Under the pieces are notes generated by a model. The model was given only the letters and a program-made list of their open reading frames with translations. It did not search any database and had not been told where the DNA came from. Shown here one piece after another: positions 4,242 through 57,806 of a DNA stretch of 64,000 nucleotides. The number at the start of each line of letters is the position of its first letter. Position 1 is the stretch's first letter. The DNA is from Fimbriimonadaceae bacterium (lineage in GTDB: Bacteria > Armatimonadota > Fimbriimonadia > Fimbriimonadales > Fimbriimonadaceae), in NCBI GenBank assembly GCA_019638775.1, contig JAHBTD010000003.1, positions 434,001-498,000 on the forward strand. The letters are read 5' to 3'. Made by a program: the position numbers and the translations under genes.

Positions 4242-5521
4242 GATTTTTTGTGCCTCCCGATGCTCGAAGCTGGATTGCTTATCCCGACGACACCGATTTC
4301 CCCATTCAAAACCTTCCGTTTGGTGCGTTCTTGCTCCCCGACGCCGACGACGACATGCAATATGTCGGCGTGGCGATCGGCGACTATGTCGTCAATCTCG
4401 CCCCGCTCGAAGCTGAAGGGGTCATCGACCCATGTGGCGCCACCGAGGGTGTCGGCCTTTGGGTGCTCCTATCGGAGGGCCGCGACGCGATGGCGGCGAT
4501 CCGTGAGCAGGTCTTCGATCTTTTGCGTGAGAAGAACTCGGCGTTGAGGGACAACCAAGCTCTGCGAGCCGCAGCGATCTTACGACGGGACGACGTCTAC
4601 ATGACGCTTCCAGCACCCGTGGGCAACTTCGTCGATTTCTATTCCGGCATTCACCATGCGAGCAACGTGGGCAAAATGTTCCGCCCCGACCAGCCGCCCC
4701 TCCTCCCGAACTACCGCCACGTCCCCGTCGCCTACAACGGGCGCGCCTCAAGCGTGATCGTGTCGGAAGAGCCGATCCGGCGTCCGAACGGGCAAACAAA
4801 GGGTCCGAACGACGAGATGCCGAGCTTTGGTCCAACGCGAGAGCTTGATTTTGAGTTGGAGATGGGTTTCTTTGTTGCCGAAGGCAATGAACTGGGTGAT
4901 CCCGTCCGGGTAGACGATGCGGAGGAGATGCTTGCTGGAGTTGTTCTCGTCAACGACTGGTCGGCTCGTGACGTTCAGAGATGGGAGTATCAGCCACTCG
5001 GCCCCTTTCTCGCTAAGAGTTTCGGCACCAGCGTGAGCCCGTGGCTCGTTTCGCTGGATGCACTGGAGCCCTTCCGCATCCAAGGCCAACCCCAAGATCC
5101 CGAAGTGTTGCCGTACCTTCAGCCAAGCGGACCCTGCCATTTCGACATCCAGCTTGAGGTCTTGCTGCAAACCGAAAAAATGACCAAGCCCCAAGTGATC
5201 TGCAGGAGCAACTCGAAAAACCTTTACTGGAGCTTTGCTCAGCAGCTTGCACACATGACATCGAACGGCGCAAACCTCCTCCCCGGAGACTTAGCGGCGA
5301 CGGGAACGATCAGCGGCACCTCCGAAGATTCCTACGGATCACTTTTGGAGTTGACTTGGAGAGGGCAAAACCCGATCACTCTTTCCGAGACGGGCGAGAC
5401 GCGGACCTTCCTTGCCGATGGTGATGTGGTCATCATGCGCGCATTCGCCACCGACGGAAAACTGCGAATCGGCTTCGGCGAGGTTCGATCTCAGGTTTTG
5501 CCAGCCCTCAACTATCCATAA
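4238..5521 (+). CDS. fahA: Fumarylacetoacetase
   Basis: 427 residues, the full length of the family. The enzyme hydrolyses 4-fumarylacetoacetate to fumarate and acetoacetate, the last step of tyrosine catabolism. The metal and catalytic segment DFYSGIHHASNVGKMF (near residues 130-145), the paired glutamates in RELDFELEMGFFV and the segment LVNDWSARDVQRWE followed by GPFLAKSF are all present and correspond to the Asp/Glu metal ligands and catalytic His and Lys of the family. It is translationally coupled to the preceding unknown gene; nuoG begins about 70 bp downstream. No homogentisate dioxygenase or maleylacetoacetate isomerase lies in this window. Confidence 0.95.
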   Translation: MRFFVPPDARSWIAYPDDTDFPIQNLPFGAFLLPDADDDMQYVGVAIGDYVVNLAPLEAEGVIDPCGATEGVGLWVLLSEGRDAMAAIREQVFDLLREKNSALRDNQALRAAAILRRDDVYMTLPAPVGNFVDFYSGIHHASNVGKMFRPDQPPLLPNYRHVPVAYNGRASSVIVSEEPIRRPNGQTKGPNDEMPSFGPTRELDFELEMGFFVAEGNELGDPVRVDDAEEMLAGVVLVNDWSARDVQRWEYQPLGPFLAKSFGTSVSPWLVSLDALEPFRIQGQPQDPEVLPYLQPSGPCHFDIQLEVLLQTEKMTKPQVICRSNSKNLYWSFAQQLAHMTSNGANLLPGDLAATGTISGTSEDSYGSLLELTWRGQNPITLSETGETRTFLADGDVVIMRAFATDGKLRIGFGEVRSQVLPALNYP

Positions 5522-5592
5522 AGATTCGTGCAGGAACGGGCTCATTTCGGGTACACCTAGCGGACTCGGCACAGTCTGTGTTTGGAGCATTC

Positions 5593-7734
5593 ATGGCAGC
5601 GGTTGCATCTACCGATACAGTAACGATTCTTGTCAACGACGTCGAACTCCAGGTCCCCAAAGGCGAGATCATTGTGGAGTCCGTAAAACGGCTCGGGCTA
5701 GAGATTCCGATCTTTTGCTACCACTCGCGTATGAAGCCTGTCGGCATGTGTCGAATGTGCTTGGTCGAAGTCGGCTTTAAGCAGCCCGACGGCTCCGTTC
5801 GCAAAATGCCCAAGCCCCAAGCCGCTTGTACGCTCCCAGCAAGCGATGGCATGGCGATCTATACGGACACCGAAATGGTGCACCGAGATCGCAAGAGCGT
5901 CCTTGAGCTTCTGCTCATCAATCACCCGCTCGACTGCCCGATCTGCGACCGTGGTGGAGAATGCCCCCTCCAAAACAACACACTGATTTATGGCCCATCC
6001 ACGAGCCGGTACATCGAAATCAAGCGCCACCTGCCGAAGGCCTATCCGCTGAGCAGTTACGTCACGCTCGACCTTGAGCGATGTATCCAGTGTGGTCGCT
6101 GTGTACGCTTTACAGAGGAGATTTCTGGCGACAGCCAGCTCGCGTTCCGGTTCCGTGGCGCGTCGATGCAGCCAAGCACCTTTGAACTGCGCAACTTTGA
6201 ATCCAAATTCAGCGGCAACGTCATCGAAATCTGCCCAGTTGGAGCATTGACAAACGCCGAATACCGCTTCCGTGCTCGTCCGTGGGACCTCGAAACTCGG
6301 CCCGCGATCTGCACGCTCTGCTCAAACGGATGCAACGTCTGGTTCGACTATCGAGCCGGAAAGATGGTCCGCATGAATGGTCGGACCAACGAAGCTGTCA
6401 ACGAAGAGTGGACCTGCGATAAAGGCAAGTTCGGTCACGAGTTCTACAACGACGAGAAGCGACTGAAAAACGTCCTCGTGCGAAGAGGCGAAAAGCTGAT
6501 CGAGAGCGAATGGGCGACCGCCTATGCCGACCTGATCCCCCGTTTCGAGAAAGCGGGCAAGAAAGCCGCGGTTTTGATGGGTGGAAGCCTCTCAAACGAA
6601 GCCTATTACATGGTGCAAAAGCTGGTTCGAAACGGGTTCAAGTGCAACAACCTCGACCACCGATGGACTAAGCATCTGATGGGAGCAAACGACCGACTTG
6701 AGACCAAGATGAACTTCAAGTCCGTTCAAACTCAGATTGCGTCTTTCGAGAACAAATCGGCAGTTCTGATCTTTGGGACCTCACTCGCCGACGAGCAGCC
6801 GATCCTTTTCCTGCGCGTCCGGAAGGCTTGGTTCCAAAACGGTGCAAAAGTCGTTGTCGCGCACGATTCGCCCACCGATGCCGATAGTTTTGCCCATCTC
6901 ATCCTTCGCTACAAGCCCGGCACAGAAGAAGCTCTCGCAAACGCAATTCTTGCCGCAACGGTAGAGAGCGGCAAGGCGAGTGTGCCCGACGCCGTCAAGA
7001 AGCAGTTGGTTGATTTCTCCCCTGAGAAAGCCGAGAAGATCACAGGCGTCCCTGCCGCACAGATCCGTGAAGCAGCCTCCCTGATGGGACCGGGGGCCGC
7101 CATCATCACAACCCACAGCCTCCTGAACGTGGACAAAGCCCAAGACACACTCGAAGCCGTTGCCGCGGTCGGCATGACCACAGGCGCCGAATTCAACTGT
7201 TACGCGCTGAACGCCAACGACATAGGAGCCGACGCAGTGGGCATCCTGCCCGACGGGAAAGCTGCCGGTAAGGATGAGGGCCTGAACACACACGACATCC
7301 TCCAAGACTGCGCAAACGGCAAGATCGAGTCGCTTTGGCTGATGGGGTGTGATCCGTTCACCCTGCACCCCGACCGCCACCTCGTCGAGCGCGCGCTTGA
7401 AAGCGTGGAGTTCTTGGTTGTGCAAGACATCGCCGAGACCGAAGCGCTTAGCTATGCAAGCGTGGTCTTACCGATGTGCGCCCCCGCCGAAGACGACGGA
7501 ACCTATACAAACATGGAGGGTCGCGTACAGCGTCTGAAGCCGGTGTTGGATGCGAAAGGAAATGCCAAGTCTGCATGGCGAATCGCTCAAGAAGTGATTT
7601 TGAGGATAACTCCAGGCGCTCCCATCTTCAATCCCAAAGATGTTATGGCGGAGATGGCTGGAAAACTGCCCGCATTTGCAAACGCAACGTATGATCGGCT
7701 TGAAGGCGAAGGCGTCGTACTGAGCGAGGCATGA
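5593..7734 (+). CDS. nuoG: NADH-quinone oxidoreductase subunit G
   Basis: About 713 residues from ATG 5593 (GGAG 5 nt upstream; the frame is open from GTG 5578). This is the large iron-sulphur subunit of complex I. Cluster ligands are visible in order: 2Fe-2S C42, C53, C56, C79; His/Cys 4Fe-4S H111, C115, C118, C124; a further 4Fe-4S C164, C167, C170, C214; and the extra N7-type set C240, C243, C247 with C in EWTCDKGKF. The remainder is a molybdopterin-oxidoreductase-like fold. No other nuo gene is nearby, so either the complex I genes are dispersed or this is an isolated copy. It follows fahA on the same strand with a 70-bp gap. Confidence 0.93.
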   Translation: MAAVASTDTVTILVNDVELQVPKGEIIVESVKRLGLEIPIFCYHSRMKPVGMCRMCLVEVGFKQPDGSVRKMPKPQAACTLPASDGMAIYTDTEMVHRDRKSVLELLLINHPLDCPICDRGGECPLQNNTLIYGPSTSRYIEIKRHLPKAYPLSSYVTLDLERCIQCGRCVRFTEEISGDSQLAFRFRGASMQPSTFELRNFESKFSGNVIEICPVGALTNAEYRFRARPWDLETRPAICTLCSNGCNVWFDYRAGKMVRMNGRTNEAVNEEWTCDKGKFGHEFYNDEKRLKNVLVRRGEKLIESEWATAYADLIPRFEKAGKKAAVLMGGSLSNEAYYMVQKLVRNGFKCNNLDHRWTKHLMGANDRLETKMNFKSVQTQIASFENKSAVLIFGTSLADEQPILFLRVRKAWFQNGAKVVVAHDSPTDADSFAHLILRYKPGTEEALANAILAATVESGKASVPDAVKKQLVDFSPEKAEKITGVPAAQIREAASLMGPGAAIITTHSLLNVDKAQDTLEAVAAVGMTTGAEFNCYALNANDIGADAVGILPDGKAAGKDEGLNTHDILQDCANGKIESLWLMGCDPFTLHPDRHLVERALESVEFLVVQDIAETEALSYASVVLPMCAPAEDDGTYTNMEGRVQRLKPVLDAKGNAKSAWRIAQEVILRITPGAPIFNPKDVMAEMAGKLPAFANATYDRLEGEGVVLSEA

Positions 7735-38815: not shown

Positions 38816-38858
38816 TTTTTCAGTTCTCTCCTGGACGACTTTGTCCGGTTCTTGCATG

Positions 38859-38965
38859 GGCATACGAGGTTAGCTGCCGGGTTCGGACCAAGAACCATCC
38901 GTTCCTTGTGAAAGGAATTCACCCCATAGGTGGGTCCCCCGCTGCCGCCGAGGCGGCATTATGCC
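38859..38965 (-). ncRNA. c-di-AMP riboswitch (ydaO-yuaA motif)
   Basis: Read on the minus strand, the P1 stem is GGCAT (38965-38961) with ATGCC (38863-38859). Inside are a GCCGCC/GGCGGC hairpin, the conserved core GGGGGACCCACCTATGGGG followed by GTGAAT, a GGTTC/GTCCGAACC region and the hallmark CCGGCAGCTAACCTCGTA just before the closing stem. These match the ydaO-yuaA consensus (GGGGAACCCA, GGGGUGAAUC, CCGAACCCGUCAGCUAACCUCGUA) that I know from B. subtilis. The short GGAC/GTCC hairpin next to AGGAG at 38820-38850 may be the expression platform. These switches usually turn expression off when c-di-AMP is high. Confidence 0.9.
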
Positions 38966-39117
38966 TTTTTCGAGATGTTCCTCATCTCTTAAATCATCAT
39001 AACGAGAGAATTGGGATAATCGCTTCCTTTTTGTGCACACCTTTTCCACAATTCTTTGGCGCGTCTGCAAGTTGTTGCCTCGTTGTCAACATGTGCGATC
39101 AAGTTATTTTGAGCCCA

Positions 39118-45357: not shown

Positions 45358-45708
45358 TGGTGGAGGCGGGGAGAATTGAACTCCCTTCCAAAACCGTCGC
45401 ACTAACCATCACCACGAGCGTCTTCCCAGATTAATCTTAGTGCCAACCTGCCCTGAGACCGGCCAGTTGACACCCAGCTCGATTAGTTTAACTCAGCTTG
45501 CTTCAAGCGGCAACTCACTGAGCGATCCGGATTTTGTTACACCCGAACTCTCTCCTACCGACTCGGAGAGGGCGGACGCGCTGCGTTAATTAGGCAGCGT
45601 AGGCGAAATTGTTGTTCGCTTTTACTTTTTTGCCGCTTTTTACGAGGCCAACGGCTCCTCGGCTCGCAACGGAAAGTCGAACCAGCTCTGTCGAACCCGT
45701 TCGCCCCC
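45358..45708 (-). ncRNA. ssrA: Transfer-messenger RNA
   Basis: 351 nt on the minus strand, from GGGGGCGAACGGGTTCGACA at 45708 to the encoded CCA at 45360-45358. The 5' GGGGGCG pairs with the 3' CGCCTCC of the acceptor stem, and the 3' part is a T-arm-like GGAGTTCAATTCTCC. The tag frame begins GCG AAC AAC AAT (45619 downwards) and encodes ANNNFAYAA, ending in TAA at 45592-45590. With the charged Ala the proteolysis tag would be AANNNFAYAA. tmRNA rescues stalled ribosomes together with SmpB. Pseudoknot stems follow the tag. Confidence 0.95.
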
Positions 45709-51825: not shown

Positions 51826-53336
<1,511 letters not shown>

Positions 53337-53477: not shown

Positions 53478-54452
53478 ATGAGCGCAATGGCGCAAACGAC
53501 CCTGGACTGGATTACAGTCCGAAAAGCGTTCTTTGCCTCCACGCTAGCCGGCTTCGTGGTTGCTCTTGTCACTAGTCCGACATCTATCCCAGGCATAACT
53601 TCAAGCTTGGGTAACACTCCAATAAGCCAAGCCATTTACCACTTCATATTGGGGCTCGGAATGCACGTCGTTCCCAGTGCAATCGCCTTTGCGTTGACCT
53701 TCATGATTCCCCTTGTCTCTGGGAACAAAACGCTCAGGTGGGCATGGGGCACCTTGCTGATCTTGGCCAGCTTCCAAGGTGAACTCCGCAGCCTGCCCTG
53801 GTGGATTCAGGAAGGGCGCGTCGCTGAGATACTCGTGAACGTCCTTATCTTCGGCGGTGTGTTGGCGCTCTTATGCTGGCTTTGGGATCGGAAGCAGAGC
53901 CCCCAGGAGCCTGTTTCCGAGGAAAACGGGGTAAGAATCGCGCGGAGTTGGCCGGTCCTGGGTACCGCCATCGCTATCGGCGCTTTCGCTGCCGTAGTGC
54001 AGTCTGTCCTTACATTCCTCAGCATGAGGGCTCGTGCGGGTGGGGTAGAAGTTGGTTCCTTCTTTTGGGAGCAGCATTGGAAAGCACTGCCCGGAGAAAT
54101 ATTTGCATTTGGTGTGATGCTGGGGTGCTTGTTGCCCTCACGGAGCAAATCGGTGTATCGATGGCTCATTGGCACTGTTGCCGTCTCGATGATTATTAAG
54201 GCCCTGAGCGCCTATCCCTCGATGGTTGATACGTCTAGCCATGGAAGACCTGGGATCATGGCGGGTGTTGGAGAGTGGGGATTGACCGTTCTGGCCGGGT
54301 TAGCAGTTAACGTCATTGCGCTTTGGCTTGCTATCATGCTTTATTTGCTAGTCAACCCCGAGGAGAAGATCGGCGAATGGAGTGAGCGTTGGAGAGCAAA
54401 ACGCCAAAACCGAAAAATTCAGAAAGCACAAGAATGGCTCAGCGGAGAGTAG
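53478..54452 (+). CDS. Polytopic membrane protein of unknown function
   Basis: 324 residues (ATG 53487 is an alternative start with better AGGG spacing). Seven or eight hydrophobic helices, an internal polar linker at about 140-155 (KQSPQEPVSEENG) and a basic C-terminal tail. The two halves each begin with a helix ending in a threonine/serine-rich turn, which might reflect a duplication. No family recognised. It starts 17 bp after the 16S terminator and probably shares a transcript with the M48-like gene. Confidence 0.65.
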   Translation: MSAMAQTTLDWITVRKAFFASTLAGFVVALVTSPTSIPGITSSLGNTPISQAIYHFILGLGMHVVPSAIAFALTFMIPLVSGNKTLRWAWGTLLILASFQGELRSLPWWIQEGRVAEILVNVLIFGGVLALLCWLWDRKQSPQEPVSEENGVRIARSWPVLGTAIAIGAFAAVVQSVLTFLSMRARAGGVEVGSFFWEQHWKALPGEIFAFGVMLGCLLPSRSKSVYRWLIGTVAVSMIIKALSAYPSMVDTSSHGRPGIMAGVGEWGLTVLAGLAVNVIALWLAIMLYLLVNPEEKIGEWSERWRAKRQNRKIQKAQEWLSGE

Positions 54453-54488: not shown

Positions 54489-55394
54489 TTGACAATGAAG
54501 AGGTCCTTCCAAGACCAGGTCCGAATCTACCGCCGACGCAGCATCGCCATGGCCTTCGTCGCGCCTTTTGTGGCGATGGGCGTCTTTACCAGCGTCGGCG
54601 TTTGGCTGCTAAAGGACTACTTTTGGGCGCTGAGCGCGCTCGGTCTTGTCATCGTGCTTGGCGTGGGAGCCCATGGATACTTCTATGCTGCCCCCGCCAT
54701 GCAGATTTCCCTCGCAAACGGCAAGTCCAGCCCTGAACAAGAGCGGAAACTCAGCAACCTACGCGACGAACTCAGGGTAGCCACCGGGAACACCAACCTC
54801 GGCGTCTTCCTGCTCGATAGCCCCGCCATCGACGCCTTTGCCCTCGGCGAACGGTACGGAATGCCCGCGATCGGCGTGACGGAGGGTGCGCTGGAGGCTT
54901 GTTCGCGCGACGAACTGATGTGTATGCTCGCCTTCGCCGCCGCGTCGCTGCAGATGCGCGACATCCGGTTCCTCGCCATGGTTTGGGCGCTGGCGATGCT
55001 GGGGCCTAATATGCTGCGGCTGTTCGCGGAAGGGTGGGGACAGCTTGTCAGCGACCTGGAGGCTTTCGTGCCTGCACTGGTGATGCTCCTCATTGCTGTC
55101 GTGCTGAGCATCTTCGGCTGGGTATGCGCAGGCTGGATTTATGGCCTGATCCTCTCCAAGCGCCAAAAGATGGCAGACGCCCTGGCGCTCCAACTCTCCC
55201 GACACCCGGAAGCATACATATCCGCAATGGAGAAAGCCGCGCGAAGACCCATCATTGGGATCGGTGGTGACGTCGCCCCGGTCGCCTTTGTTGGCAGCGT
55301 CAAGAACGGCGACATGCGACGCTCGGTAAGAAGAAGAATCAACACCATCGGGCGAATCTTCGGCGTGAGCAAAACGGTCGTTTGGGGCGGCTAA
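54489..55394 (+). CDS. M48/HtpX-like membrane protein lacking zinc ligands (pseudoprotease)
   Basis: 301 residues. Two N-terminal helices, then a domain that follows M48 step by step: LRDELRVATGNTNLGVFLLD, DAFALGERYGMPAIGVTEGA and CSRDELMCMLAFAAASLQMRD, two further helices, and SKRQKMADALALQLSRHPEA. In active M48 enzymes the third segment reads LAHExxHxxxRD and the last has E-x3-D. Here HExxH is F149-A-A-A-S153 and the later Glu is Lys, so all three zinc ligands and the catalytic Glu are gone. Function may be regulatory or scaffold. It lies 36 bp after the membrane-protein gene. Confidence 0.75.
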   Translation: MTMKRSFQDQVRIYRRRSIAMAFVAPFVAMGVFTSVGVWLLKDYFWALSALGLVIVLGVGAHGYFYAAPAMQISLANGKSSPEQERKLSNLRDELRVATGNTNLGVFLLDSPAIDAFALGERYGMPAIGVTEGALEACSRDELMCMLAFAAASLQMRDIRFLAMVWALAMLGPNMLRLFAEGWGQLVSDLEAFVPALVMLLIAVVLSIFGWVCAGWIYGLILSKRQKMADALALQLSRHPEAYISAMEKAARRPIIGIGGDVAPVAFVGSVKNGDMRRSVRRRINTIGRIFGVSKTVVWGG

Positions 55395-56510: not shown

Positions 56511-57806
56511 CTACCCCTTCACAACCGTAAAGTCCCCTTTACGCTTCCCAACAACAATCTTCCACCCCGTTTTTAACTTGAGCGTCCAGCCCGGCCCACT
56601 CACGGCACCGGAAGCAGGCGCCACCACCTTCGCCGACCGCCAATCCCCCGCAATCAAAACGCCATCGGTGACCTCAATCGTCCCCCATTCGTCAATGATC
56701 GTCGCCGTCGGATAATAGGTTCCATCCTCATCAAGCGGTACCAAATTCTGCGGATCAAAGGAGACTCGCATCTTCTCAAAAGGAAGAAGCAGAACCGGAC
56801 CCTCAATCATCCGCTTGCGGATCGCCGCGAGCTTCTCCAGCCTCGCCTTCTCCCGGTCTGTCTCGATCTGGAGCAGTTCGTCGTAGCCGTAGGGCTTTGC
56901 AAGCGCGATAGTCGCCGAATCCGATTGAAACGTCTTCAAATCATAAAGCTCAGCAAGCATCCCGGCAAGGCTCGACTGCGCAGTAAGAGTCTTCCGCCAC
57001 CGAATCTCGTCGTATAGCGCAGCTTCCCGAACGTTCAAAAGAAGCGCATAAGCCGGACCAGTCTTGTAAGCAAACCGCCGCGAATAGGTATCCAGTCCAA
57101 CAAAGTAATTCAACTGATTGCTCATCCACATCCGCGATTCCGGCTCCCAGCCCCCGCGCATCATGTAGCCCGTAAACTCCGCAAGCCCCTCGTTCAGCTC
57201 AAGCTGGTCCTCCTCGACCTTGGCTTTGGGGAACAGTCGGTACCGCATCTGACGGAACTCCAGCGCATTCTTCGCATACCGATCGCGATCCTTCGCCGTC
57301 CGTGCCAAAAGCGCCTCACTCAGCGCTTTGAGTTCAAGCTGAAGCCACAAACGGCCATCCTTGGTTTCCATCTGCGCATTTTGGGGCGACGCGCCAGGGA
57401 TGCCAAGCTCCGGCTGAATCCGGTGAAACAGCTCGTGGATCATCAGAGTCGCTCGCTCGGCGCGGTTGGAGGGCAAAGGCCACATCACCATCGTCCAACG
57501 GCTGCCCGCCCAATCGATCGCCGTGTTCGCAATCGCGATCTGATCCGACAGCTTGCCCAAAAAAACCTCGGCCTGCTCCGAAAACTCACCTTCCGGCGGC
57601 CTTTGATTTGTCACGTAAGTTCGGGTGTCCGCATGAACAAAGATCATCGGCCCATAAAGGGGTTTGCCCCAAAGCTGCGCGTCGTCGTCATCGGAAATCC
57701 ACTTGGCTTCCTGAAAATATCGCTTCGCCGTCGGGATATCAATTGGACCCTGAATGGGATTCAGCGGCAGCAATGTCAATGCTATAAGTGGCGCAATACA
57801 GATCAC
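56511..57806 (-). CDS. Secreted zinc metallopeptidase-like protein (HExxH)
   Basis: 431 residues. The N-terminal hydrophobic stretch (MICIAPLIALTLLPLNP) looks like a signal peptide. MIHELFHRIQ (H124, E125, H128) is followed 78 residues later by NEGLAEFTGYM (E206), the spacing and motif of gluzincin-type peptidases. The region between is helical (RLWLQLELKALSEALL). The C-terminal 110 residues are beta-rich. The peptidase family is not recognised. It shares no operon with the AraC gene, which ends 67 bp upstream on the same strand. Confidence 0.75.
   Translation of the reverse strand: MICIAPLIALTLLPLNPIQGPIDIPTAKRYFQEAKWISDDDDAQLWGKPLYGPMIFVHADTRTYVTNQRPPEGEFSEQAEVFLGKLSDQIAIANTAIDWAGSRWTMVMWPLPSNRAERATLMIHELFHRIQPELGIPGASPQNAQMETKDGRLWLQLELKALSEALLARTAKDRDRYAKNALEFRQMRYRLFPKAKVEEDQLELNEGLAEFTGYMMRGGWEPESRMWMSNQLNYFVGLDTYSRRFAYKTGPAYALLLNVREAALYDEIRWRKTLTAQSSLAGMLAELYDLKTFQSDSATIALAKPYGYDELLQIETDREKARLEKLAAIRKRMIEGPVLLLPFEKMRVSFDPQNLVPLDEDGTYYPTATIIDEWGTIEVTDGVLIAGDWRSAKVVAPASGAVSGPGWTLKLKTGWKIVVGKRKGDFTVVKG

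Follow-up and report, generated by a model that had tools for sequence, protein, structure and literature searches.

A remote HtpX/M48 homologue without its zinc site, probably kept as a non-catalytic membrane protein, in a Fimbriimonadaceae bacterium

Background

The question raised by this locus is whether a gene that resembles a membrane protease, and from which the catalytic motif has been erased, still encodes a functional protein. The gene lies on the forward strand of the window, the whole 64,000-nucleotide stretch analysed here, from contig JAHBTD010000003.1 of a Fimbriimonadaceae bacterium. An initial annotation had proposed an M48/HtpX protein kept without catalysis, to be checked through structural prediction, a search for an active paralogue and a search of relatives for the same loss; relatives with an intact HExxH were to count against it.

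Pseudoproteases have been well studied in eukaryotes. No M48 case is named in a review of them (PMC11266112), and a limited literature search found no description of a bacterial M48 pseudopeptidase. Pseudopeptidases are a known class and, as far as that search shows, a bacterial HtpX case is new.

Results

Homology and predicted fold

The open reading frame was present at 54489–55394 (+), as first annotated. The TTG at 54489 adds two residues relative to an ATG at 54495, which is more likely to be the natural start; residues are numbered from this ATG, giving a gene at 54495–55394 (+) and a product of 299 amino acids. NCBIfam models of HtpX matched the product (best NF003425, E = 1.2e-17, with 64 bits where the cut-off is 355), and phmmer returned active HtpX-like proteins from the same taxonomic family at 25–31% identity, with E-values down to 1e-25. 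The protein scored below the curated cut-offs of both the Pfam M48 family, for which the PF01435 threshold was not reached in a Pfam search, and the NCBIfam HtpX equivalog. E-values between 1e-17 and 1e-25 are beyond chance, and by sequence comparison the protein is a remote M48/HtpX homologue by descent, the relationship originally claimed. A peptide-pattern search of genome contigs produced no relatives, while a plasmid search produced just ordinary HtpX-like matches, at 24–31% identity.

Compared with HtpX-type M48 proteases (NF003425, and the active L002 from the same genome), the protein shared the order of elements, the N-terminal hydrophobic helices, the R..AD helix, the VTxG and RDEL motifs and the predicted core fold; it differed in lacking HExxH, the glutamate that is the third ligand, HP and the asparagine of PNAF. 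Hydropathy peaked at approximately residues 21–63 and 194–212, and the third peak seen in L002 was weaker, a profile consistent with the HtpX membrane topology of an N-terminal hairpin followed by later hydrophobic helices.

An AlphaFold2 model built from 46 aligned family members (pLDDT 81, pTM 0.79) bore out the proposed structural resemblance at Z-scores of 11–12, and its predicted fold is that of M48, partly dictated by the active relatives in the alignment. The top rows of VIA-align were BepA (Z = 11.9; 4.0 A over 154), the M48 peptidase 3c37 (Z = 11.7) and ZMPSTE24 (Z = 11.1), the last being also the best row of Foldseek (E = 1.9e-3). A single-sequence model contained the same main helices and strands at a pLDDT of 58; its matches were mostly unrelated helices and were uninformative.

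Loss of the active site

Residues were compared in an alignment of the protein with 34 relatives. HExxH was present in all 34; residues 147–151 of the window protein (54933–54947, +) read FAAAS instead, through H147F, E148A and H151S, exactly the substitution first noticed. The later glutamate, the third zinc ligand, had been reported as lysine; in the gap-free register of RQ-KM-AD against RE-FL-AD (RQKMAD against REFLAD), it is in fact Gln224 (55164–55166, +). A further loss, absent from the initial annotation, affected the active-site plug HPx4R, a motif whose histidine is the fourth zinc ligand in BepA (PMC7950410); at residues 275–281 (55317–55337, +) this had become RRx4R through H275R and P276R, with R281 kept. 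Finally, the invariant asparagine of the PNAFA motif was replaced by Asp113 (54831–54833, +). Judging by the motif, this asparagine probably corresponds to N265 of ZMPSTE24, a residue whose mutation reduces activity (PMC6078402).

None of the four metal ligands therefore remained, nor did the catalytic glutamate, and since the protein contains only two histidines in all (H60 and H237), it is without any zinc site. It is not an M48 peptidase, because HExxH, the third-ligand glutamate and HPx4R were each tested and none was found.

Beyond the active site, the protein had been described as well conserved, and this did not hold. Among 90 positions conserved at ≥85% in the alignment, 29 were kept and 61 differed, spread across the gene, and half of the 34 invariant positions were lost; the sub-threshold PF01435 score agrees. 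The 17 invariants retained (E92, A96, G98, F115, G118, T129, R138, E140, L141, A146, D156, R223, A227, D228, R236, A244 and R281) look structural. The 17 lost include all six invariants of the active site (hypergeometric p = 0.009); the corresponding value for the four ligands plus the glutamate was p = 0.022, while HExxH and the later glutamate alone (four residues) were lost only marginally beyond the overall rate (p = 0.051). On these values, loss was moderately concentrated on the active site.

Active paralogues and other inactive homologues

The host genome matched PF01435 in nine places, and HExxH was intact in all eight that were examined. The closest relative of the window gene in the genome, at C1:1128042–1128803, was of the active type (HEIGH; 27% identity, E = 1e-18), followed by a second HtpX at C2:292612 with HELAH, so that the anticipated active paralogue was found twice over. 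Relatives with an intact HExxH do exist, and yet they do not refute the reading of a lost site, because they match the active paralogue that is also kept here. Orthologues of the window gene were absent from the order (113 genomes) and the phylum (291 genomes), and also from the genus, which is represented by this genome alone; since none occurs among the 291 phylum genomes, the gene may have arisen recently or be short-lived. It formed the longest branch of the tree, too long for its origin to be placed; such an extreme branch is also expected under relaxed constraint. The second-longest branch belonged to L057 (3108–4034, −), an M48 protein from a related genome; it is very divergent and its HEVAH is intact.

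A profile search of the order was made and 99 further M48 matches were read among the matches listed. HExxH was present in 97 of these, and was absent from at least two, both from genus g15 of the same taxonomic family. The first, L174 (6968–8374; 468 amino acids), has HAVAT for HExxH and lysine for the third glutamate; the second, L175 (about 4599–5984; 461 amino acids), has GAIAG and tyrosine. Both genes are open, their proteins are 34% identical over their length, and they come from two species of one genus, each genome retaining an active M48 copy. The pair occurred in no other of the 291 genomes. Hence, the search for the same loss among relatives succeeded in part: it returned the g15 pair without HExxH, and no orthologue of the window gene. 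In Pfam, the two g15 proteins are still recognised as Peptidase_M48, and annotation would consequently present them as active proteases.

Like the window gene, the g15 pair belong to the same family, have lost HExxH and the third glutamate (HAVAT/RK and GAIAG/RY) and coexist with an active copy; unlike it, they carry an insert of about 90 residues and an extra C-terminal membrane helix, reaching about 465 amino acids and the Pfam M48 score. All three genes could be survivors of one old inactive M48 lineage that was otherwise mostly lost, which would be compatible with the explanation preferred below. One tree did join all three, with support of 72/84; this join may be false, because long branches meet in it. 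The insert is missing from the window protein, which matched the pair weakly, and L174 in short pieces only. A single old lineage is less likely than not.

Coding integrity

Conservation of the remainder of the protein had been offered as proof of selection, an argument that fails for so divergent a protein; because of this divergence, the case for selection was made instead from the integrity of the reading frame, from bias by codon position and from which invariants had been kept and which lost. The gene was free of stops and frameshifts. Its G-C content at first, second and third codon positions was 0.63, 0.45 and 0.75, a signature like, or stronger than, that of neighbouring housekeeping genes. 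Neutral decay was simulated by mutating the coding sequence of the active paralogue without selection, ignoring indels, with 300 runs per level. The frame was stop-free in 51 of 300 runs at 80% identity, in 3 of 300 at 50% amino acid identity (i.e., stops in 99%) and in none of 300 at 40%. Given that half of the invariants are lost, neutral drift up to this point would normally have broken the frame. A recent relaxation of selection may be compatible with the data, as the frame often survives when neutrality is confined to the final fifth of the change.

The evidence was weighed against the view that the gene is a decaying, functionless duplicate under relaxed or no selection, open by chance: a pseudogene in the making. 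The loss of 17 of 34 invariants, the extreme branch length, the lack of orthologues and a patchily distributed neighbouring gene are all in keeping with such decay. It is nonetheless unlikely, given the strong codon-position signature, a frame that is intact where simulations in which half of the residues were lost neutrally gave stops in 99% of runs with indels uncounted, retained invariants that look structural (e.g., R223/A227/D228, D156, G98 and G118), and a second inactive pair that persists in two species. The gene is likely to be maintained by selection; with its intact frame, codon signature and active paralogues elsewhere in the genome, it is, as first supposed, an M48-derived gene that has lost its catalytic site and has been kept coding.

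Continued enzymatic activity through another metal site or another chemistry is very improbable; the fold appears to be retained in the model, but an alternative zinc site was rejected, as there are just the two histidines, and the FAAAS that replaces the old site consists of hydrophobic or small residues with no cluster of ligands. The chance that errors in sequencing or assembly have disguised an active protease is negligible and this was also rejected, as no single base or frame error yields 61 changes among 90 conserved positions across the gene, with a normal codon signature.

Genomic context

A multi-pass membrane protein of 324 amino acids is encoded 42 nucleotides upstream of the window gene (53478–54452, +). 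This ORFan had no match in the 291 phylum genomes, Pfam, NCBIfam or PADLOC. Between the two genes, no terminator-like site was found on the forward strand, and no promoter evidence either; the ORFan is a candidate for a co-transcribed partner of the window gene. The pair lies directly downstream of a complete 16S rRNA gene (51826–53336, +) with no adjoining 23S gene (i.e., unlinked rRNA). No PADLOC defence family matched the window gene, the genes around it or the two g15 genes.

On the opposite strand, 56511–57806 (−) encodes a secreted-looking protein without a Pfam match, bearing HELFH and a later NEGLAEF motif, possibly a gluzincin-like metallopeptidase judging by these motifs; it had strong matches in only six other genomes of the order. 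The window also contains a c-di-AMP riboswitch (38844–38975, −) and a tmRNA gene (45358–45708, −).

Discussion

The locus is probably best explained as a duplicated HtpX-type M48 protease that lost its zinc site and has been kept as a non-catalytic membrane protein, most likely for binding. An HtpX-type M48 membrane protease gene would have been duplicated, and the spare copy would then have lost its four metal ligands and catalytic glutamate while retaining the hydrophobic membrane helices and the predicted M48 core. The resulting pseudopeptidase would be neofunctionalised: an M48 scaffold embedded in the membrane, presumably folded and expressed, which probably binds rather than cuts, since the zinc and catalytic residues are all lost and yet the gene is intact. 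It might hold, shield or titrate membrane proteins that are clients of the active HtpX paralogue; alternatively, it might act on the active paralogue itself, or on the membrane protein encoded by the neighbouring ORFan. The suggested role in regulating membrane-protein quality control is plausible.

Several systems offer comparisons. RF1-OMA1 of sugar beet is an M48 duplicate with HQVGH that binds preSATP6, in a genome where a second gene keeps HExxH (PMC6894571); like the window gene, it arose by duplication of an active M48 membrane protease, has an altered zinc motif and is accompanied by the active copy. RF1-OMA1 is neofunctionalised as a binder, a function shown by experiment, whereas binding by the window protein is inferred. 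RF1-OMA1 further differs in being eukaryotic and mitochondrial and in retaining both histidines of the motif, and the two are homologous no more closely than as M48 members. ZMPSTE24 that is catalytically dead remains able to restrict viral entry and shows better binding to IFITM3 (PMC9601121), and BepA E137Q has a dominant-negative effect (PMC7950410). The FtsHi pseudoproteases of chloroplasts (M41) are likewise relatives of a membrane metalloprotease with HExxH erased, existing beside active paralogues; they differ in belonging to another family and in having an AAA+ ATPase domain that provides a separate activity (PMC8197885, PMC11266112).

A broader proposition, that spare copies of HtpX have been converted again and again in this bacterial family into dead, membrane-embedded binders that steer active HtpX or protect its clients, here together with a lineage-specific membrane protein, is unlikely; if true, it would provide a prokaryotic counterpart to iRhoms or RF1-OMA1. 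In this one family, at least three inactive HtpX homologues exist, each alongside an active copy, and these inactive and active pairs would constitute a small system for testing whether a living paralogue is controlled by a dead membrane protease.
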